Positions 2,268 to 12,771 of a stretch of DNA of 64,000 bases are shown in pieces (the stretch's first letter is position 1; each line of letters starts with the position of its first letter). This DNA is from an uncultured Opitutia bacterium (GTDB taxonomy: Bacteria > Verrucomicrobiota > Verrucomicrobiia > Opitutales > Opitutaceae), in the NCBI GenBank assembly GCA_903877135.1, contig CAIRCN010000074.1:186001-250000 (forward strand), in the 5' to 3' direction. The notes below the pieces were generated by a model. The model was not told the origin of the DNA. It did no database searches and worked only from the letters and a program-made list of their open reading frames with translations. The translations under genes were made by a program, and so were the position numbers.

Positions 2268-3170
2268 ATGCCGAAGCTCGCGGCGTTTCCCAAGGGCTGC
2301 ATCCGACCGCTGTGCCAAGGTGGGATGACGCTGCGCGAGTGGGTGGACCACGCGGCGCCGTTGGGGCTTGACGGGCTCGAATACTACAGCGGGTTTTACG
2401 AACTGGCTGAGCCAGCGGGCTGGGCGTCGGCGCGGCGGACGGCGGAAAGTGCGGGCCTGATCATCCCCATGCTGTGCTGCTCGCCGGATTTTTCACAGCC
2501 GGAGCCGGAGCTGCGCCGACGCGAAATCGAGAAGGAGAAAAACTGGATTCGGATGGCGGCGACTCTGGGCGCGGGCTACTGCCGCGTGCTTTCCGGCCAG
2601 CGCCGGCCGGAGCTGACGAAGGACCGCGGCCTGCAGATCGTCGTCGAGAACATCGAGGCGTGTCTGCCCGAGGCGGAGCGGTGCGGCGTCACGCTCATCA
2701 TCGAGAACCATTACAAAGACGACTTCTGGGACTACCCGGAGTTTGCGCAGACGATGGACGTGTTCTGCGAACTGGTGGGACGCATCCGGCACCCGCGTTT
2801 CGGCGTGAACTACGACCCGAGCAACGCGTTCCTCGCGGGCGACGATCCGCTGGAGCTGCTCCGGCGGGTGAAGGACCGCGTGGTGACGATGCACGCGAGC
2901 GACCGATTTCTGCTTTCGGGCACGCTGGAGGATCTCCGGCGTGAGGAGGGCGGCTCGCAGGGCTACGCGAAACGCCTGAGCCACGGCGAAATCGGCAAAG
3001 GCCTCAACGACTACGACGCCATCTTCAGCACGCTGCGCAGCGTGGGCTTCGACAGTTGGGTGAGCATCGAGGACGGCGTTGATGGCATGGAGCAGCTCGC
3101 GGCAAGCGTCCGCTTTGTGCGCGCCAAGCTGAAGCAGCACTGGCCGCCGACGGTCACTCGGCACTCGTGA
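2268..3170 (+). CDS. Sugar phosphate isomerase/epimerase (xylose-isomerase-like TIM barrel)
   Basis: A 300-residue AP-endonuclease-2/xylose-isomerase-like barrel. The metal-ligand pattern is visible: Glu in TLIIENHY, Asp and neighbours in GVNYDPSNAF, His in VVTMHASDRF, and the final Glu in WVSIEDGVDG. The start is the ATG two bases after the SDR stop; the longer reading frame that begins inside the SDR gene has no homologous content. It is the last gene of the operon and its end overlaps the convergent kdpE by 17 bases. Enzymes of this kind epimerise or isomerise keto sugars; the precise substrate is unknown. Confidence 0.85.
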   Translation: MPKLAAFPKGCIRPLCQGGMTLREWVDHAAPLGLDGLEYYSGFYELAEPAGWASARRTAESAGLIIPMLCCSPDFSQPEPELRRREIEKEKNWIRMAATLGAGYCRVLSGQRRPELTKDRGLQIVVENIEACLPEAERCGVTLIIENHYKDDFWDYPEFAQTMDVFCELVGRIRHPRFGVNYDPSNAFLAGDDPLELLRRVKDRVVTMHASDRFLLSGTLEDLRREEGGSQGYAKRLSHGEIGKGLNDYDAIFSTLRSVGFDSWVSIEDGVDGMEQLAASVRFVRAKLKQHWPPTVTRHS

Positions 3171-3852
3171 AGCGGTAGCCGATGCCGGACTCAGTTTTCA
3201 AGAACGCCGGCTGGCCGGCGGAGACTTCCAGTTTTTTGCGCAGGTTGGCCATGTGGACGCGCAGGTAATGCGTGTCCTGCTCATGCGTGGGGCCCCAGAC
3301 TTCGCGCAGGAGCTGGCGATGCGTGACGACTTTGCCGCGGTGCTGGAGCAGCAGGCGTAGCAGGGCGTATTCCTTCACCGTCAGATGCGCGTCGGCACCG
3401 GCCTTGGTGACGGTGCGCTTAGCAAAATCCACCTCGACCTCGCCGAAACGCATGACGCTGACTTCGCCGGCGGGTTGCGCCCGGCGGAGGAGCACGCGCA
3501 TGCGGGCCAGCAGCTCACCGCCGCCAAACGGTTTGGTCAGGTAATCGTCGGCGCCGGCGTCGAGCGCGGCGATTTTCACCGCTTCTTCGCCGCGCACGGA
3601 GAGAATGAGGACGGGCAGGTGGCTCCACTCGCGGAGATGCCGCAGCACTTCGAGGCCGCCCATGTCGGGCAGGCTCAGGTCGAGGATGACAGCGTCGGGC
3701 CGTTGCACGGCCGCCTCGTTGAGACCGAGCGCTCCGGTTTCCGCCTCGCGGACCCGGTAGCCAGCGGACTCGAGAGTGAGCCGCAGGAGGCGGCGGATTT
3801 GCACCTCGTCGTCGATGACTAGAATGTCGGGTTGGTGCGCTAATTCGCTCAT
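3154..3852 (-). CDS. kdpE: KdpE response regulator
   Basis: An OmpR/PhoB-type regulator of 232 residues: a receiver domain with phospho-acceptor Asp near residue 58 (VILDLSLPDMGG) and the conserved Lys in LTKPFGGG, followed by a winged-helix DNA-binding domain (LTVKEYALLRLLLQHRGKVV, then TESGIGYRF). The family partner is KdpD, which lies immediately upstream with a 4-base ATGA overlap, indicating translational coupling. KdpE activates kdpFABC when K+ is limiting. It is the distal gene of the potassium locus and its 3' end overlaps a convergent isomerase gene. Confidence 0.95.
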   Translation of the reverse strand: MSELAHQPDILVIDDEVQIRRLLRLTLESAGYRVREAETGALGLNEAAVQRPDAVILDLSLPDMGGLEVLRHLREWSHLPVLILSVRGEEAVKIAALDAGADDYLTKPFGGGELLARMRVLLRRAQPAGEVSVMRFGEVEVDFAKRTVTKAGADAHLTVKEYALLRLLLQHRGKVVTHRQLLREVWGPTHEQDTHYLRVHMANLRKKLEVSAGQPAFLKTESGIGYRFTSAE

Positions 3853-6518
3853 TCGGTCGGCACCTTACCATGCGCCGCATAAGGAAGGTAAATGGTAAAT
3901 ACCGCCCCGCCGCCGGGATTTTCGCCGACCACGATTTCACCGCCCTGGGCGGTGACGAAACCGCGGATGATCGAGAGCCCCAGACCGAGGCCTCCGGCGC
4001 GGGCAGCGTCGCCGCGCTGGAATTTCTGAAACAGCCGCTCGCGCATCTCCAGCGGGAAACCCGGCCCGCGGTCGGCGACGGTGAAAAAGACGCGGGCGCG
4101 GGAGCCGTCGACGCCGGCGGTGAGAAAGATTGGCGTGGCGGCGGGCGTGTGGAGTGCGGCGTTGAGGAGGAGGTTGGCGATGACCTGCTCCATGAGCGCG
4201 GCGTCGGCGCGGAAGAGCGGGACGTCGGCGGGGATGTCGGCCTCGAACGGGTGGCCGGTGAGCGAGTCCTGCACGCCGTCGACGGCGGCGTTGACCAGAT
4301 CGTGGGCGTCGCACCAGTCGAGCCGGGGCTTGAGCGCGCCGGATTCGAGGCGGGTTTGGTCGAGGAGGTTGTTGACGAGGCGCGTGAGGCGGCGGGTGGC
4401 GGTGCGGATTTCGGTGGTGAGCGCGGCGCGGGTGGGCTCGTCGGCGGTTGTGAGATTTTCAGCGGCGCCGCTCAAGACGGCGAGCGGCGTCTTTAATTCG
4501 TGCGACACGCCGTCGAGCAGGGCGCGGTGAAGTTTGTCCGACTCGGCGAGAAGTTTTTCACGCTCGCCCGCGGCCCGGAGCGACTCGCTCTCGACAAGCA
4601 GGGCGAGTTGCGTGGCGAAACTCTCGATGAGGTCCCGCTGCGCAAGGGTGAGCGTTGCCTCGGGTGGCACGCGCACGACGAGGACGCCCACGGCGGTGTT
4701 TTCGCGCACGAGCGGGACGTAGAAACCTTTCGCGCTAGGCAACGTGTCGGTGAAGCGGCCGGCTTTCTTGCGGTTGCGCCAGACCCAGTCGGCGACGCCT
4801 AGTGCCTTTTCGTCGAGCGTGAACGAGCCCGCGAAGTGCGGCGTGAGGCCGGCGTGGTCGTCGTTGCCGAGCAACAGTGCGGACTGCGCGGCGAAGAGCG
4901 CATCGGTTTGGCGGAGCGCGGCGAACACTGCATCGTCAAGCGTGCTGGCCGCGCTGAGCGCCTGCGTAAGATGGAAGAGCGCGGTCGCGCGGTCCTCGCG
5001 CATCCGCTCGTGGCGCTCCTGAGCGCGGATGCGCGCCGTGAGATGGCCCGCAATCAGTGCGACCACGAAATAGGTGATGAACAGCACGCCGTCCTCAAAC
5101 TTGCCGATGTAAAATGTGAACACCGGCGGGATGAACAGGAAATCCCAGATGAGCGCGCTGAACACGCCCGCGGCGATCACTGGGCCGCGGCCGACGCGCA
5201 GGCTGAGGGCGATGACAGCGAGCAGGTAGAGCATGCCAATCGCGAGATAGCCAGTGAATGGCGTAAGAAACCAGAAGGCGGTCGTAAGCGCAGCCAGCAC
5301 GCCGAGCGTCTCGGCATATTCGTGCGCGGGCGAGGGCGCGGCGGGCCGCCAGTCGAACCACGGCGCCGGCTTTTCCGCGGTCCGTTCGGCCGGCACGACG
5401 TAAAGGTCGATGGGCCCACTGGTGCGCAGCAGGCGGTCGGCAAGATTGCCACCACGCAGCGCATCGAGCCACCGTGGCGATCGCGATTTGCCGACGACAA
5501 TTTGGGTGGCGTTGTTCTGGAGCGCGACGCGCACGAGCGCGTCGGCGACGTCGTCGTCGTGCGTGATGACGACCTCAGCGCCGAGTTCACGGGCGAGCGC
5601 GAGGTTTTGTTCGAGCCGGCGCTGCGCATCCGCGTCAAGCGGCCGGGACGACTCGACACTGACGGCGACCCAGGCTGCGCCCTGCGCGGCCGCCATGCGC
5701 CGGGTCCAGCGGACAAGCTGCGTCGACGAGGGGCTTGGGCCGACGGCAACAAGGAGGCGCTCGCCGGAACGCCAGACCGTCTTGAGCGGCGAGGAAGCGC
5801 GGAGTTCGTGGAGGCGTTTGTCCACGCGCTCGGCGACGAAGCGGAGCGCGAGTTCGCGAAGCGCGGTGAGGTGGGTGTCCTTGAAGAAATTCTCCGCGGC
5901 GGCCTGCGCGCGGTCGCCGAGGTAGACTTTGCCCTCGCGCAGGCGTTCGAGCAGCGTCTCGGGCGAGAGGTCGATGAGCTCGATCTGGTCGGCCAACTCG
6001 AAGACGGAGTCGGGCACGGTCTCGTGCACGGGCACTCCGGTGATCTGGCGGACGGCGTCGGCACGGCTTTCGAGGTGCTGGACGTTGAGGGTGGTGAAGA
6101 CGTCGATGCCGGCGTCGAGCAGCTCAATGACGTCCTGATAACGTTTCGGGTGGCGCGAACCGGGGGCGTTGGTGTGGGCGAACTCGTCGACGAGGGCGAG
6201 CCGAGGCTTGCGCGCAAGGATGGCTTCTAGGTCCATCTCCGTGAGCTGAATGTCGCGATAGGTGACCTGTTTTCTCGGGACGACTGTCAGACCGGCGAGC
6301 AGCGCCTCGGTCTCGGCGCGCTTGTGGGTCTCGACGATGCCAACGACGAGGTCGGTGCCCTCGCGCAACTCCTGCTGCGCCGCGCGGAGCATGGCATAGG
6401 TCTTGCCGACGCCCGGGCACATGCCGAAAAATACCTTTAGCTGGCCGCGGCGCGCGCGGACTTCCTCGCGGTTGAGCGAGGCGAGGAGGGCATCTGGGTC
6501 GGGGCGGACGTTGTGCAT
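3849..6518 (-). CDS. kdpD: KdpD K+ sensor histidine kinase
   Basis: An 889-residue sensor kinase of full family length. Residues 25-240 form the KdpD N-terminal domain with Walker A (GMCPGVGKT, about 32-40) and the DEFAHTNAPGSRHPKR segment. A universal-stress-protein-like domain follows (about 250-375), then four membrane helices (about 400-500), a GAF-like region, the HisKA box GVSHELKTPL with the phospho-histidine near residue 670, and the HATPase domain (GGLGLGLSIIRGF). In the family it senses K+ and, in some bacteria, binds c-di-AMP through the USP domain. It lies downstream of kdpC and the barrel protein rather than directly after kdpC. Confidence 0.96.
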   Translation of the reverse strand: MHNVRPDPDALLASLNREEVRARRGQLKVFFGMCPGVGKTYAMLRAAQQELREGTDLVVGIVETHKRAETEALLAGLTVVPRKQVTYRDIQLTEMDLEAILARKPRLALVDEFAHTNAPGSRHPKRYQDVIELLDAGIDVFTTLNVQHLESRADAVRQITGVPVHETVPDSVFELADQIELIDLSPETLLERLREGKVYLGDRAQAAAENFFKDTHLTALRELALRFVAERVDKRLHELRASSPLKTVWRSGERLLVAVGPSPSSTQLVRWTRRMAAAQGAAWVAVSVESSRPLDADAQRRLEQNLALARELGAEVVITHDDDVADALVRVALQNNATQIVVGKSRSPRWLDALRGGNLADRLLRTSGPIDLYVVPAERTAEKPAPWFDWRPAAPSPAHEYAETLGVLAALTTAFWFLTPFTGYLAIGMLYLLAVIALSLRVGRGPVIAAGVFSALIWDFLFIPPVFTFYIGKFEDGVLFITYFVVALIAGHLTARIRAQERHERMREDRATALFHLTQALSAASTLDDAVFAALRQTDALFAAQSALLLGNDDHAGLTPHFAGSFTLDEKALGVADWVWRNRKKAGRFTDTLPSAKGFYVPLVRENTAVGVLVVRVPPEATLTLAQRDLIESFATQLALLVESESLRAAGEREKLLAESDKLHRALLDGVSHELKTPLAVLSGAAENLTTADEPTRAALTTEIRTATRRLTRLVNNLLDQTRLESGALKPRLDWCDAHDLVNAAVDGVQDSLTGHPFEADIPADVPLFRADAALMEQVIANLLLNAALHTPAATPIFLTAGVDGSRARVFFTVADRGPGFPLEMRERLFQKFQRGDAARAGGLGLGLSIIRGFVTAQGGEIVVGENPGGGAVFTIYLPYAAHGKVPTE

Positions 6519-6753: not shown

Positions 6754-7563
6754 TCAGAACGTGATCGCATAGCTCACGGTGAGAACGCCGCGACCGACGG
6801 CGGCGGCGTTGACGGCCTTGCCAAAGGTGCCCTGCTTGAAGAAATTTGCGGAACCCTCCGTGTAGGCCCAGCCGATAGTGAACTTGGAGTCCTTGGTGAC
6901 TTGGAACGGCGCAGCCACGCCGATCAGGTAGTAGTTCCCCCAGTTCTTGATTTCCGGCGAAACGTCAGGAACGGCCGTGGTCCATTTGTAGGTGCCGGCG
7001 GTGCCGGTGAAGTCGAGTTCGGTGCCAAAATCCTTGAGCGGGAGGGTGTAGGTGGCGGTAAACTCCAAGGTCGGACCCTTCAGCACGAGATCGTAGTAAA
7101 TCTTCGGTGTGAACTTCCACCCGGCGACGGAGTAGTTGAGTGCGAGGTTGGGCTCGAATGTGGCGGTATAGAAGCCATTGGTCCTTTTCGAGTTCGGATA
7201 AGTGTAAATCGTGACACCGGGCACCCAGCTCAGGGTGTCCTTGATCGCCTCGAACGCGTAGGAACCGTAGAAATCGAACTCGGGGTCGGACTGGCCGACC
7301 ACTTTGTCGGTGATCGGGAAATTGGCCCAGAAGCCGGCGGCGAGGGCCCCGCTGTCGTATTCAATCGCTGGCTCGAAGGAGGGGCCGCCGAGGCGCACGC
7401 CGCGGAACATATATTGGGAGGCGAACGCGGGCGCGGCGGTCACCGCCCAAATCGGAGAACTCGTGGCGGGCACCGCAGTCGCGGTGGACGTTGTTTGGGC
7501 GCGAGCACCGAGCGTTCCGACCGCGGTTATCGCAAGAAGGAGGAACTTTGTTTTGGTTTTCAT
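6754..7563 (-). CDS. Outer-membrane beta-barrel protein, TorF-like putative porin
   Basis: A 269-residue exported protein: a Lys-containing N-terminus, a hydrophobic stretch and an ARAQ cleavage site near residue 22, then alternating polar/aromatic strands ending in a hydrophobic C-terminal strand (VGRGVLTVSYAITF) that ends in Phe, as outer-membrane barrels do. The segment ASQYMFRGVRLGGPSFEP resembles the SDYRFRG motif of the TorF/gcw_chp family. It sits between the kdpC side and kdpD in the same orientation, with 160 bases before it and 235 after it. A role in letting K+ through the outer membrane is an inference from position only. Confidence 0.7.
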   Translation of the reverse strand: MKTKTKFLLLAITAVGTLGARAQTTSTATAVPATSSPIWAVTAAPAFASQYMFRGVRLGGPSFEPAIEYDSGALAAGFWANFPITDKVVGQSDPEFDFYGSYAFEAIKDTLSWVPGVTIYTYPNSKRTNGFYTATFEPNLALNYSVAGWKFTPKIYYDLVLKGPTLEFTATYTLPLKDFGTELDFTGTAGTYKWTTAVPDVSPEIKNWGNYYLIGVAAPFQVTKDSKFTIGWAYTEGSANFFKQGTFGKAVNAAAVGRGVLTVSYAITF

Positions 7564-7723: not shown

Positions 7724-7876
7724 TTAGCGGGGAGAGATGGATCGCCCCCAACCGCCCTGATATGAGTCGATGTTGCGGCGGCAGGATGGATCGAGCAGCG
7801 CCAGCATGACGGTCATGGTGATCAGGACGGCGAGTAGCACGGCGCTCCGCATCTCCCGAGGCGTGTAGGTTTTCAT
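7724..7876 (-). CDS. Small membrane protein of the kdp operon (50 aa), unrecognised
   Basis: A 50-codon frame begins with ATG 20 bases after the kdpC stop and ends at TAA. It starts MKTYTPREMR, continues with one clear hydrophobic helix (SAVLLAVLITMTVMLALL, about residues 11-28) and ends in a short basic/polar tail with a cysteine (DPSCRRN). Positive charges before the helix suggest an N-in single-pass inner-membrane peptide. It is too short for routine gene callers. The position directly behind kdpC suggests a Kdp accessory peptide, but no family is recognised and the frame could be non-coding. Confidence 0.5.
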   Translation of the reverse strand: MKTYTPREMRSAVLLAVLITMTVMLALLDPSCRRNIDSYQGGWGRSISPR

Positions 7877-7896: not shown

Positions 7897-8496
7897 TTAG
7901 CGCGCGGACGATTTCGACGCGTCATCAAGCGTGCGATTGAGCAACAGGACATTCACCCCGGGCTCGCCCAAGGCACCGAGGCTGCGGCCGTCTGTGTGCG
8001 AGGCGATGAGCGCGAAGATGCTGGCGCGCGGGAGGCCGCGGGCGGTGGCGACGCGCGCAGCCTGGAGCTGCGCGTTGGCGAGGCTGATGTGCGGGTCGAG
8101 CCCGCTGCCGGAGGAGGTGACCGCGTCGGCCGGCACGGCGGCATCGCTGGCGAGGCCGTTGACGGTGCGGTAGGCGGCGACGGCGGTTTTGATGCTGTCG
8201 GCGAGCTTCTGGCTGGTCGGCCCTAAGTTGGTGCCGCCGGAACTCGTCGCGTCGTAGCCGGTGCCGGCGGCGGAGGGACGCGGCTGAAAATACTTGTCGC
8301 TGGTAAAACTCTGGGCGAGCAATGCTGAGCCGCACACGGTGCCGTCCTTGTCGACGACAAGCGAGCCGTTGGCTTGGGCGGGAAACAGTGCCTGGGCACC
8401 GGCCCAGACGACGAGCGGATAAGCGCCGCAGAGCAGAACGGCGAAGACGAGTGTCAATAGGAGGGAAGTTCTGATTTCAGTGAGGAACGTTTTCAT
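7897..8496 (-). CDS. kdpC: KdpC, potassium-transporting ATPase subunit C
   Basis: A 199-residue KdpC of normal length. The start MKTFLTEIRTSLLL is followed by the single membrane anchor (LVFAVLLCGAYPLVVW) and the periplasmic domain with the family segments GSALLAQSF, FQPRPSA, GSGLDPHISLANAQLQAARVA and VNVLLLN. The longer frame starting at 8658 is not the gene: the upstream bases belong to a separate 55-aa frame whose stop overlaps this ATG. KdpC stabilises the KdpFABC complex in the inner membrane. Confidence 0.96.
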   Translation of the reverse strand: MKTFLTEIRTSLLLTLVFAVLLCGAYPLVVWAGAQALFPAQANGSLVVDKDGTVCGSALLAQSFTSDKYFQPRPSAAGTGYDATSSGGTNLGPTSQKLADSIKTAVAAYRTVNGLASDAAVPADAVTSSGSGLDPHISLANAQLQAARVATARGLPRASIFALIASHTDGRSLGALGEPGVNVLLLNRTLDDASKSSAR

Positions 8497-8660
8497 GGAT
8501 AGAGAGTGCGGGGATGAGGCACCGTTGGCTTGGGCCAGGGGCCATGCGAGTCGCTGCGCGGTTCCCAGCCGAGGTGGCCAACGGCCAGGCCGGCGATGAA
8601 ACCGGCGAGCGCCACAACCAAGTAGGCGGATAAACGCAGGCGGTCGGTTGCGCAGCACAT
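8493..8660 (-). CDS. Small membrane protein between kdpB and kdpC (55 aa), unrecognised
   Basis: A 55-codon frame starts with ATG 9 bases after the kdpB stop, and its TGA overlaps the kdpC ATG (ATGA), the usual sign of translational coupling. The product begins MCCATDRLRL and has one hydrophobic helix (SAYLVVALAGFIAGLAVGHL, about residues 11-30) with a Pro/His-rich tail. The spacing on both sides is exactly that of a real operon gene, and without it kdpB and kdpC would be separated by 173 bases, unusual for this operon. No family is recognised. Confidence 0.6.
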   Translation of the reverse strand: MCCATDRLRLSAYLVVALAGFIAGLAVGHLGWEPRSDSHGPWPKPTVPHPRTLYP

Positions 8661-8669
8661 GGCGGCCTC

Positions 8670-10712
8670 CTAGACGAGGTGAATAGAGTTGATGAGCAGA
8701 TCGATGGCCTTGATGCCGATGAACGGAATCACGATGCCGCCGAAACCGTAGATGAAGAGATTACGGCGAAGCATCGCCTCTGCGCCGATGGGCCGGTAGG
8801 CGACGCCCTTCAGGGCGAGCGGGATCAGCGCGATGATGATCAGGGCGTTGAAAATCACGGCGCTCAGGATCGCGCTCAGCGGCGAGGCGAGGTGCATCAC
8901 ATTGAGCGGCGCAATGGCTGGGAACACGCCGACCAGCATCGCAGGAATGATCGCGAAATATTTGGCGACATCGTTGGCGATGGAGAACGTCGTGAGCGCC
9001 CCTCGGGTGATGAGCATCTGCTTCCCGATCTCGACGATATCGAGGAGCTTTGTCGGGTTGGAGTCGAGATCGACCATGTTGCCGGCTTCCTTGGCGGCCT
9101 GCGTGCCGGTGTTCATGGCGACGCCGACATCGGCTTGCGCGAGGGCAGGGGCATCGTTGGTGCCGTCGCCAGTCATCGCGACGAGATGGCCCTTGGCCTG
9201 CTCCTCGCGAATGCGGGCAAGCTTCATCTCGGGCGTGGCCTGGGCGAGAAAGTCGTCGACGCCGGCTTCGGCGGCGATGGCGGCGGCGGTGAGCGGGTTG
9301 TCGCCGGTGATCATCACCGTGCGAATGCCCATCGCGCGGAGCTGCGCGAAACGCTCCTTGATGCCGCCCTTCACGACGTCCTTCAGGAAGATCACTCCGA
9401 GCACCTCGCGACCCTCAGCGACGACAAGCGGCGTGCCGCCGGAGCGGGAAACGTGGGCCACGATCTCGCTGACCGCAGGCGGATAGACGCCGCCCTGGGC
9501 CTCGACCCAGGCGCGGACGTTGTCGGCGGCGCCCTTGCGAATGGAGCGGGCGGGCTGGCCGCCGACGGCTGAGAGATCGACGCCGCTCATGCGGGTCTGC
9601 GCAGAGAAGGGCACAAACACTGCTTGTGGCGAGGCGAGGTCGCGGCCACGCAGGTTGAATTCCGCCTTGGCGAGCACGACGATGCTTCGACCTTCAGGCG
9701 TCTCGTCGGCTAGCGAGGCGAGCTGGGCGGCGTCGGCGAGCCGCTCGGGCGTCACGCCCGGAGCCGGCACAAACTCGTCGGCCATGCGGTTGCCGAGGGT
9801 GATGGTGCCGGTTTTGTCGAGGAGGAGCACGTCGATGTCGCCGGCGGCCTCGACGGCGCGGCCGGACATCGCGAGGACGTTGCGCTGGAGCAGTCGGTCC
9901 ATGCCCGCGATGCCGATGGCGCTGAGCAGCCCGCCGATGGTGGTGGGAATCAAGCAGACGAGCAGCGCAATGAGCGTGGTGATGGAGAAGACGACGTTCG
10001 CGTAGATGCCGAAGGGTTTCAGCGCGATGATAACCAGCAGGAAAATGACCGTGAGCGCCGAGAGCAGAATGGTGAGTGCGATCTCGTTGGGTGTCTTCTG
10101 ACGCGTCGCGCCTTCGACGAGGCTGATCATGTGATCGAGAAACCCTTCGCCGGGGTTCGCCGTGATGCGGATGACCAGCGAATCGGAGAGCACGGCGGTG
10201 CCGCCTGTGACGGCGCTGCGGTCGCCGCCGGCTTCGCGGATGACAGGCGCGGATTCGCCGGTGATGGCGGATTCGTCGACGGACGCGGCGCCCTCGATGA
10301 CTTCGCCATCGCCGGGAATCAACTGGCCGGCAGTGACAAAAACGAGATCGTCTTTGCGGAGTTGCGAGGCGTCGACGGATTCGAGCGAGCCGTCCCGGCA
10401 GCGGCGTTGAGCAACGAGCTGCTTGCGCGAAGAGCGGAGGGCGCGCGCCTGGGCTTTACCGCGGCCCTCGGCGACGGACTCGGCGAAGTTGGCGAAGACG
10501 ACGGTGAAGAGGAGCCAGAGCGCGATCTGGAGGACGTAGCCGAACGGCTCCTTCGAGGTGAAGAGCTGCTCGAACGTAAGAAACGCGCCGATGAGTGTGA
10601 CGAACATCACTGGGTTCTTGAGCTGCGTGCGTGGGTCGAGCTTGCGGAACGAGTCGGCGACAGCCTGCGACATGATTGCACGGTCGAAAAGGGAAACGGA
10701 TTTGGTGCTCAT
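8670..10712 (-). CDS. kdpB: KdpB, K+-transporting P-type ATPase catalytic subunit
   Basis: A 680-residue P-type ATPase of the usual KdpB length. The phosphorylation loop [14 protein letters not shown], the actuator motif ITGESAPV, the hinge [10 protein letters not shown] and [18 protein letters not shown] are intact, and membrane helices lie at both ends as in the family. The conserved serine of the TGES loop region that is phosphorylated in E. coli KdpB for inhibition falls in the same motif. It follows kdpA by 37 bases. It hydrolyses ATP to drive K+ uptake through KdpA. Confidence 0.97.
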
Positions 10713-10749: not shown

Positions 10750-12567
10750 TCAGAAGAGGGTGCCGGCGTGCATCAGGTAGTGCTCGACGATGGGGCCGAT
10801 GGCCAAGGCGGGCAGGAAGGTGAGCGCGCCGACGAGGAGGACGGTGCCGATGAGCAGCACGACGAAGGTGACGCCCTCAGTGCGGAACGTGCCGGCGCTC
10901 GCGGGGACGAGTTTTTTCGAGGCCAGATTGCCAGCGAGTGCGAGAATCGGGACGATCATCAGGAATCGGCCGATGAGCATCGCGAAGCCGAGCGTGGTGT
11001 TGTAGTGCCAGTCGCCATCAGCCGGAGTGGCGGTGAGGCCAGCGAAGGCGGAGCCGTTGTTGCCGACGGCGGAGCTGTAGGCGTAGAGGATTTCACTGAA
11101 GCCATGTGGGCCGGCGTTGTTGAGCCCGGCCTGGCCCCAGGTGCTCACCGCGGCCCACGCGGTGCCCCCGAGAATCGTCGCGGCGAGGACCATGAGGACG
11201 AGCATTACGAGCTTCACATCGTAGGCCTCGATTTTCTTGCCGAGGTATTCCGGCGTGCGGCCGACCATCAGACCGGCGATGAAGACGGCGAGGACGACGA
11301 AGATGAGCATGCCGTAGAGGCCGGCGCCGACGCCGCCGAAGATGACTTCGCCCGTCTCCATGTTGAAGAGCGGCACGAGGCCGCCGATGGGCGTGAATGA
11401 GTCATGCATCGCGTTGACCGCGCCGCATGAGGCGTCGGTCGTGATGGTGGCGAAGAGTGCGGAGTTGAAGATGCCGAAGCGCACCTCTTTGCCCTCCATG
11501 TTGCCGTCCGCGGCAGCGACGCCAAGTTTTTGATGGATGGGATTGCCGCTGACCTCGGCTTTCCAGCAGACAAGCGCGCCGGCAACGAACATCGCGAACA
11601 TCGCGCCCCACACCGCCCAGCCGTGGCGTTGGTTTTTCACCATGCGGCCGAGGTAGTAGGTGAGCGCGCTCGGGATCGCGAAGATCGAGAGGATCTGGAG
11701 GAAGTTGGAGAGCGGCGTGGGATTCTCGAAGGGGTGGGCGGCGTTGGCGTTGACGTAGCCGCCGCCGTTCGTGCCGAGCATTTTGATTGCGATTTGGGAG
11801 GCGACGGGGCCTTGCACGATGGTCTGCGTGTCGACCTTTTGATCGACCATCACCGGCGTCTTGCCATCAGCGGCCAGGACCGGCTGGCCCTTGTCGTCGG
11901 TCTTCGTGACCTGCGTCGTGTAAGGCTCGAGGGTCTTGGCGACCGTGTAGGGCTTGAAGTTCTGGATGATGCCCTGGGAGACGAGGAACAGAGCAAACAC
12001 GAGGCAGACCGGCACCAGCAGGTAGTAGGTGACGCGGACGGTGTCGGTCCAGAAGTTGCCGATGGTCTGCGCAGTCTGGCGCGCGATGCCGCGAACGAGC
12101 GCGGCGGCAATCGCGATGCCGCAGGCGGCCGACGTGAAGTTGTGAATCGTCAACGCGACCATCTGCGAGAAGTAGCTCATGGTCGACTCGCCTGTATAGC
12201 TCTGCCAGTTGGTGTTGGTCGTAAAGCTGGCGGCGGTATTGAACGCGAGTGATGGCGAGAGGCCGGGAAAATTCTGCGGGTTGAGCGGCAGGTGATCCTG
12301 GAAACGGAGGATGAAGTAGGTGAACAGCAACCCGACGGCGCTGAACATCAGCAGCGCGAGCGTGTAGCCGATCCAACTCTGCTCCTTGGCGGGATCGATG
12401 CCGCAGACGCGGTAAGTCAGCCGCTCGACCGGGCGCACGATGGGATCGAGGAACGTGCGACCGTGCACGTCGAGCACCTGGACGAGATATAGTCCGAGCG
12501 GCTTCGTGATGAGCAGCAGCGCTCCGAGGTAGAGCGCGAATTGGAGCCAGGCATTGGGCGAGTTCAT
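10750..12567 (-). CDS. kdpA: KdpA, K+-transporting ATPase channel subunit
   Basis: A 605-residue polytopic membrane protein of the K+-transporter superfamily. Filter-loop regions are visible as [60 protein letters not shown] and [13 protein letters not shown], the four glycine-bearing pseudo-repeats of KdpA. The ATG is 1 base from the kdpF stop. Slightly longer than E. coli KdpA (557), because of an extra loop around residues 215-250 rich in Thr, Lys and Asp ([19 protein letters not shown]). Confidence 0.97.
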
Positions 12568-12651
12568 TTAGAATTTCTCCGGGCGCAGCACCGCCACGAC
12601 GAGGTAGACGAGGAGGGCGAGTGCGATGAGCGAGATGATGATGGTTTCCAT
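12568..12651 (-). CDS. kdpF: KdpF small subunit (27 aa)
   Basis: A 27-codon frame immediately before kdpA (stop and kdpA ATG are adjacent). It begins METIIISLIALALLVYLVVA and ends VLRPEKF. The single hydrophobic helix followed by L-x-PEKF is the KdpF signature. In E. coli KdpF is a lipid-like stabiliser of the KdpFABC complex in the membrane. It is too short to appear among long open frames, and its presence fixes the operon order as kdpFABC. Confidence 0.92.
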   Translation of the reverse strand: METIIISLIALALLVYLVVAVLRPEKF

Positions 12652-12681: not shown

Positions 12682-12771
12682 TCAGCGGACCTTCGCGCAG
12701 AAGCGGGCGTAGGCAGCCGCGACGACGAAAAACGCGACGGTGAGAGCGACGAAGACGAAATCGTTGTTCAT
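12682..12771 (-). CDS. Small membrane protein upstream of kdpF (29 aa)
   Basis: A 29-codon frame ends 30 bases before kdpF. The product begins MNNDFVFVALTVAFFVVAAA and ends YARFCAKVR, a single hydrophobic helix with a short basic, Cys-containing tail. From memory, comparable tiny frames with an FxALTxAFF-like helix occur ahead of kdpF in other bacteria, but I cannot name a family. Position and composition suggest a Kdp-associated peptide; coding status rests on those alone. Confidence 0.55.
   Translation of the reverse strand: MNNDFVFVALTVAFFVVAAAYARFCAKVR

Follow-up and report, generated by a model that had tools for sequence, protein, structure and literature searches.

Among P-type pumps KdpFABC serves as a model; four subunits are known, and in Anabaena the gene order is kdpABGCD. 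KdpF, a presumed stabiliser of the pump, interacted with KdpD in a two-hybrid assay and, when overexpressed, left kdp regulation unchanged (PMC3618439). Inhibitory serine phosphorylation of KdpFABC, on KdpB, is mediated by KdpD (PMC11018627), and the kinase acting on the KdpB serine was still described as unknown as of 2020 in the accessible part of one report (PMC7535926). Here we describe two small peptides, X and Y, one or both of which are encoded next to pump genes, kdpD or a Ser/Thr kinase gene in many kdp operons of one family, the Opitutaceae.

The window, i.e., the whole 64,000-nucleotide stretch analysed (positions 186,001 to 250,000 of contig CAIRCN010000074.1, from an uncultured Opitutia bacterium), carries a kdp operon whose order on the minus strand is a 29-aa ORF, kdpF, kdpA, kdpB, X, kdpC, Y, a porin gene, kdpD and kdpE. 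The identities of kdpB, kdpD and kdpE are those that we take from family knowledge.

3154..3852, minus strand: presumably kdpE, named from family knowledge
3849..6518, minus strand: presumably kdpD, named from family knowledge
6754..7563, minus strand: TorF-family-like putative porin gene (TIGR02001, 2.1e-9; 37.3 bits, below the model cut-off of 47.15)
7724..7876, minus strand: Y, a second single-span peptide of 50 aa, between kdpC and the porin gene
7897..8496, minus strand: kdpC (PF02669, 4.4e-68), with its ATG at 8496
8493..8660, minus strand: X, the gene of a 55-aa single-span peptide between kdpB and kdpC, identified from homologues, dN/dS and a structure model
8666..8671, minus strand: Shine-Dalgarno sequence of X, AGGAGG, overlapping the kdpB stop
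8670..10712, minus strand: presumably kdpB, 680 aa with TGES and DKTGT motifs, from family knowledge and conservation in kdp loci
10750..12567, minus strand: kdpA, conserved in kdp loci
12568..12651, minus strand: kdpF, encoding a true 27-aa KdpF (PF09604, 1.3e-8; TIGR02115, 7.6e-8)

The initial annotation had described a 55-aa ORF at 8493-8660 between kdpB and kdpC, starting 9 bases past kdpB, overlapping the kdpC start with its stop and encoding a single hydrophobic helix, and all of this was borne out. The X ORF runs on the minus strand from the ATG at 8660-8658 through 55 codons to the TGA at 8495-8493, and encodes MCCATDRLRLSAYLVVALAGFIAGLAVGHLGWEPRSDSHGPWPKPTVPHPRTLYP. The TAG of kdpB occupies 8672-8670, leaving 9 nt before the ATG of X, and the TGA of X has two bases in common with the ATG of kdpC at 8496-8494 (ATGA). 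A longer GTG ORF of kdpC reaches 8658, crossing X in another frame. In G024, a genome of another genus, an X with 62% identity occupies the same slot, with the same 9-nt spacing and kdpC overlap, and the letters running from the kdpB stop codon up to the start codon of X, Shine-Dalgarno sequence included, are identical to those in the window. X is a conserved gene with strong translation signals.

X resembles KdpF in being a small single-span peptide of the kdp operon that is probably accessory to the pump. It differs in matching neither PF09604 nor TIGR02115, in being about twice as long, with a long tail, and in its operon position: a KdpF is encoded directly before kdpA and has about 25-30 aa, whereas X has 55 aa and lies between kdpB and kdpC. 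A true KdpF coexists with X in the window operon, and a relic of KdpF is ruled out by the failure of X to match either model. With the N-terminal helix of KdpC, encoded by the neighbouring gene, X shares a single span and a presumed periplasmic C-terminal part; it lacks the KdpC domain, and a KdpC duplicate is ruled out by the absence of any PF02669 match. Our best reading is that X is KdpF-like in kind but not a KdpF. It is a new example of a kind already known, the small membrane peptides encoded within transporter operons. KdpG of Anabaena can be likened to X in gene order, both genes lying between kdpB and kdpC, which suggests that other bacteria may also have a gene at this place. KdpG was not found among the matches listed in an open-literature search, which was swamped by the metabolite KDPG, and is not mentioned in the accessible part of PMC5716572. 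Among the matches listed, no title or abstract opening in the open literature dealt with a small gene lying between kdpB and kdpC. X matched no Pfam family up to E 1, and neither X nor Y matched a Pfam or NCBIfam family; the relatives of X and Y that were tried had no significant match either, the weak ones falling below model cut-offs. X and Y are apparently undescribed membrane peptides.

The existence of homologues establishes that X is a real gene. Across seven pairs its dN/dS was 0.28-0.48, and for Y the range was 0.16-0.63 (nine pairs). Between the window and G024, the value was 0.46 for X, 0.07 for kdpB and 0.17 for kdpC. When four non-overlapping X pairs, aligned on protein with a consequent slight bias toward coding, were pooled, pS was 0.488 versus a pN of 0.254 (P 1.4e-9), and differences by codon position were 74/62/109 (P 7e-4). 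X is under purifying but loose selection. We also examined ORFs in the gaps of 64 family loci plus the window, part of the loci having been chosen for holding X. Among the 17 kdpB/kdpC gaps of at least 130 nt, seven contained a sense-strand ORF of 40-70 aa with a membrane-like segment, a mix of X and Y-type peptides; the antisense strand contained none, and dinucleotide shuffles gave a mean of 0.01. A chance ORF is ruled out by the homologues, the pooled synonymous excess and the empty antisense strand of the gaps. The real, extra Kdp-linked membrane peptide that had been proposed from the DNA is upheld by homologues, synteny and purifying selection, and the tblastn and Ka/Ks comparisons suggested with it yielded homologues in family kdp loci, in the same slot in G024, and the loose but purifying ratios above.

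In the 252 genomes of the family, tblastn with X alone (E 1e-3 or better), which is independent of any profile, found the window, G024 and 10 further genomes; outside the window, the matches in 10 genomes fell in kdp- or kinase-linked loci and that in G202 beside a Kdp-type porin. An X profile of 15 rows, the window sequence among them, found 17 copies spread over 14 genomes (cut-off E 1e-4), although most of these matches are themselves profile rows and their E-values are not independent. The window copy showed both a full-length profile match and a kdp neighbourhood. A copy after kdpC in G221 (L147), split over two frames, was left out of the count. KdpC was present in 59 of the 252 genomes and in all 14 of those with X (hypergeometric P 4e-10, kinship ignored); by genus, it was present in 8/8 that carry X versus 21/49 overall (P 4.5e-4, kinship again ignored). 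Fifteen of the 17 copies had a clear kdp gene in the same locus; for a sixteenth (L070), the locus offered no more than an incomplete KdpE-like frame with 34% identity.

Beyond the family, 10 of 387 genomes from the phylum gave a match at E 1e-3 or better; three belonged to the window's family, and the remaining seven matches were partial only, inside frames of 149-553 aa. The X and Y profiles, run against named KdpC loci (the best 80 of 560) and 26 new loci, matched Opitutaceae, Opitutae and Opitutia records, together with L184 (titled 'Verrucomicrobia' only), the family genome G204 (L275) and, weakly (E 0.03), the inside of a 598-aa frame of L238. The single X peptide found no relative in the named genomes scanned, and plasmids gave no match.

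Whether the frame persists in close relatives, which the initial annotation had made the test of its peptide, has a divided answer: it is intact in G024, and in G001, the only congener compared, the gene is absent rather than broken, with a kdpB-kdpC spacing of 4 nt. Because G001 lacks X and only 14 of the 59 genomes with KdpC have a detected copy, the pump works without it; X is a dispensable accessory gene. On a KdpC tree of 67 rows, built by a quick method with 32 of 64 inner branches poorly supported and with X and Y labels assigned by hand, at least 6 changes were needed for X and 14 for Y, pointing to frequent gain or loss. The G228 locus was left out of this tree, its kdpC being cut by a contig end.

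The initial annotation named a single extra peptide and missed Y, whose gene (7876-7724) separates kdpC from the porin gene. With 19 rows of Y, a profile search (E 1e-6 or better) matched 22 of the 252 genomes, as against 14 for X; KdpC was present in 21 of the 22, and in the last, G110, Y lies near a contig end and is followed by a roughly 100-aa ORF and kdpD. The congener G001 gave no Y match. Relatives of Y follow kdpC or, in a different group of operons, occupy the kdpB/kdpC slot. The profile added two copies outside the first set: one precedes the porin gene in G202, and the other, in G024, adjoins no kdp gene and lies some 4 kb beyond kdpC. Among 33 gaps of 130-700 nt between kdpC and the next gene, 21 held a membrane ORF of 40-70 aa, compared with none on the antisense strand and a mean of 0.57 (at most 3) after shuffling. 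With the hand-assigned labels of the 67-row KdpC set, X or Y was present in 32 rows, and the two were never together in one slot. Y resembles X in size, in its single span, in occupying slots around kdpC and in an SR[IV]xWP-like tail, but lacks the glycine face of X. Profile-profile comparison gave a probability of 85%, mainly from the tail; the window X scored E 0.35 against the Y profile, and members in L132 and L053 scored against both profiles. X and Y may possibly be distantly related, common descent being unsure because the similarity rests mainly on the tail.

The 17 copies of X differ in their surroundings. Seven lie in the kdpC/kdpD slot (two in G017, and one each in G160, G222, G226, G228 and G034), five directly follow a Ser/Thr kinase gene (G159, G017, G230, G160 and G018), one is upstream of kdpA (G220) and one beside the Kdp-type porin gene (G202). 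The kdpB/kdpC slot, singled out in the initial annotation, does hold X here, but accounts for only three of the 17 (the window, which is G000, with G024 and G050). Overall, kdpD or a Ser/Thr kinase gene is a neighbour of 12 copies and a pump gene of 11. X follows kdpC in the Opitutaceae record EW11, which bears no metagenome-assembly label.

Ser/Thr kinase gene directly before X: L055, 7232-8494; L178, 3597-4718; L057, 9216-10454; L063, 8631-9584; L070, 887-1834

Three of these five kinases were recognized by scan as Pkinase (PF00069) and the other two by tblastn. In G159, G017 and G230 the kinase-X pair accompanies kdpABC and a kdpE-like gene, and no intact kdpD was seen in these kdpABC-kdpE clusters (L055, L178 and L057). 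In G230 and G018 (L057 and L063), X precedes kdpE; the G018 order is kinase-X-kdpE (kdpE 61%), with no pump genes in the 16 kb examined. The kinase-linked copy of G160 is the one on the short contig L070, where the only sign of kdp is the partial KdpE-like frame. The Ser/Thr kinase adjacent to X is a candidate pump kinase, and where it stands in clusters without a visible kdpD it becomes testable which enzyme phosphorylates KdpB. At 8796-8888 of L057, between X and kdpE, there is a match to the last 30 KdpD residues only (E about 0.004), perhaps what is left of a kdpD that was deleted. In G202, a detached Y-porin-X cluster (L062 8148-9503) lies about 770 kb from the kdp operon and its kdpC, and that operon has its own Y.

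X has one hydrophobic segment, and AlphaFold2 modelled one helix at residues 2-30 (pLDDT block means 80, 96 and 89) followed by an unstructured 25-residue tail (64, 69 and 58). G24 and G28 are nearly invariant in 14 rows and, with A17 and a usually small residue at position 20, form one conserved small-residue face of the helix, which in the model suggests tight helix packing. Among the 17 sequences, K+R averaged 2.00 on the N-flank versus 1.35 on the C-flank, which lends weak support to an N-in/C-out topology, D+E also being higher on the N-flank (1.88 versus 0.94). Many members have SR[IV]xWP- and HPRSLxP-like motifs in the tail; in the window the motif is weak (SDSHGPWP).

In related bacteria X occurs alongside pump genes or genes that regulate the pump, which makes an accessory role in the Kdp pump system probable. 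We consider it slightly better than even that in Opitutaceae X is translated and serves the Kdp system as a dispensable accessory peptide, tuning the pump or its contact with a pump kinase. X would be co-produced with KdpB and KdpC and insert in the membrane N-in/C-out; its glycine face would pack on a pump-complex helix or on one belonging to a Kdp kinase, and its periplasmic tail, through the motifs that many members carry, might dock on a periplasmic partner. It could then tune pump activity or pump-kinase contact in a manner comparable to that proposed for KdpF. The copies away from pump genes, in G018 and G202, the weak tail motif of the window copy and the unchanged kdp regulation on KdpF overexpression speak against this reading. 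If X and Y do bind, they would provide a natural handle on the tuning of pump activity and serine phosphorylation.

X might instead be a plain structural subunit, i.e., a KdpF-like stabiliser of KdpABC without a regulatory role. The three copies between kdpB and kdpC, two of which (window and G024) overlap the kdpC start with their stop, would suit such a subunit, as would the pump gene adjoining 11 of the 17; yet in L062, L063 and L070 the neighbour of X is a kinase or porin gene and no pump gene adjoins it, the window already encodes a true KdpF at 12568-12651, and X was detected in only 14 of 59 KdpC genomes, so we regard this as rather unlikely. With kinase genes or kdpD beside 12 copies and pump genes beside 11, an adaptor between the two is no worse a fit than a pure stabiliser. 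We are equally doubtful that X regulates Kdp kinases only, binding KdpD or the Ser/Thr kinase of those kdpABC-kdpE clusters that showed no kdpD. This would agree with the seven copies in the kdpC/kdpD slot, the five directly after a Ser/Thr kinase gene (two of these before kdpE) and the role of KdpD in KdpB serine phosphorylation (PMC11018627), but in the window and G024 it is kdpC, not a kinase gene, that X overlaps, and the 6.5 kb examined downstream in G024 showed no kdpD.

A broader proposal, to which we give still less credence, is that X and Y represent separate branches of one superfamily of Kdp-linked single-span peptides, as yet undescribed, that would couple a membrane Ser/Thr kinase to KdpB and so control the inhibitory serine phosphorylation of the pump. 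The candidate kinases would be the N-domain of KdpD or the eukaryotic-type kinase beside X in kdpABC-kdpE clusters without a visible kdpD; the window KdpB retains the TGES motif. It is very improbable that X and Y are envelope adaptors whose tails connect the pump in the inner membrane with the porin in the outer one and so channel K+. The detached Y-porin-X cluster of G202, the kdpC-Y-porin order of the window and G211 and the succession of Y and porin in G162 would favour such a link, but a porin was present at E 1e-8 or better in only three loci and the window (71 sequences, i.e., 70 loci plus the window), and the periplasm cannot be crossed by a 25-residue tail, which is shorter than the span requires. 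Finally, that the X ORF is spurious or a mere translational bridge from kdpB to kdpC, as its absence from G001, its fast evolution and the not clearly uneven codon-position differences of the window-G024 pair (16/14/21) might suggest, is scarcely credible given homologues with conserved protein sequence in four other contexts, the synonymous excess in pooled pairs and the lack of comparable antisense ORFs in the gaps.

Other small ORFs were observed in these loci. The 29-aa hydrophobic ORF MNNDFVFVALTVAFFVVAAAYARFCAKVR (12682-12771, minus strand), just upstream of kdpF, had no match in Pfam and NCBIfam scans and shows 55-76% identity in seven loci. Between the Y gene and kdpD, a roughly 100-aa ORF (RASRDTFSEERKxCFIRELAAEGFI-like) occurs in L064, L141, L145, L146, L148, L154, L161 and L290; a Pfam scan of one copy gave nothing significant. 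In Verrucomicrobiota outside the family (L195, L206 and L252), the kdpC/kdpD slot holds a different small membrane ORF (VVYLLAGTISIVLLAGWALKKFG-like).
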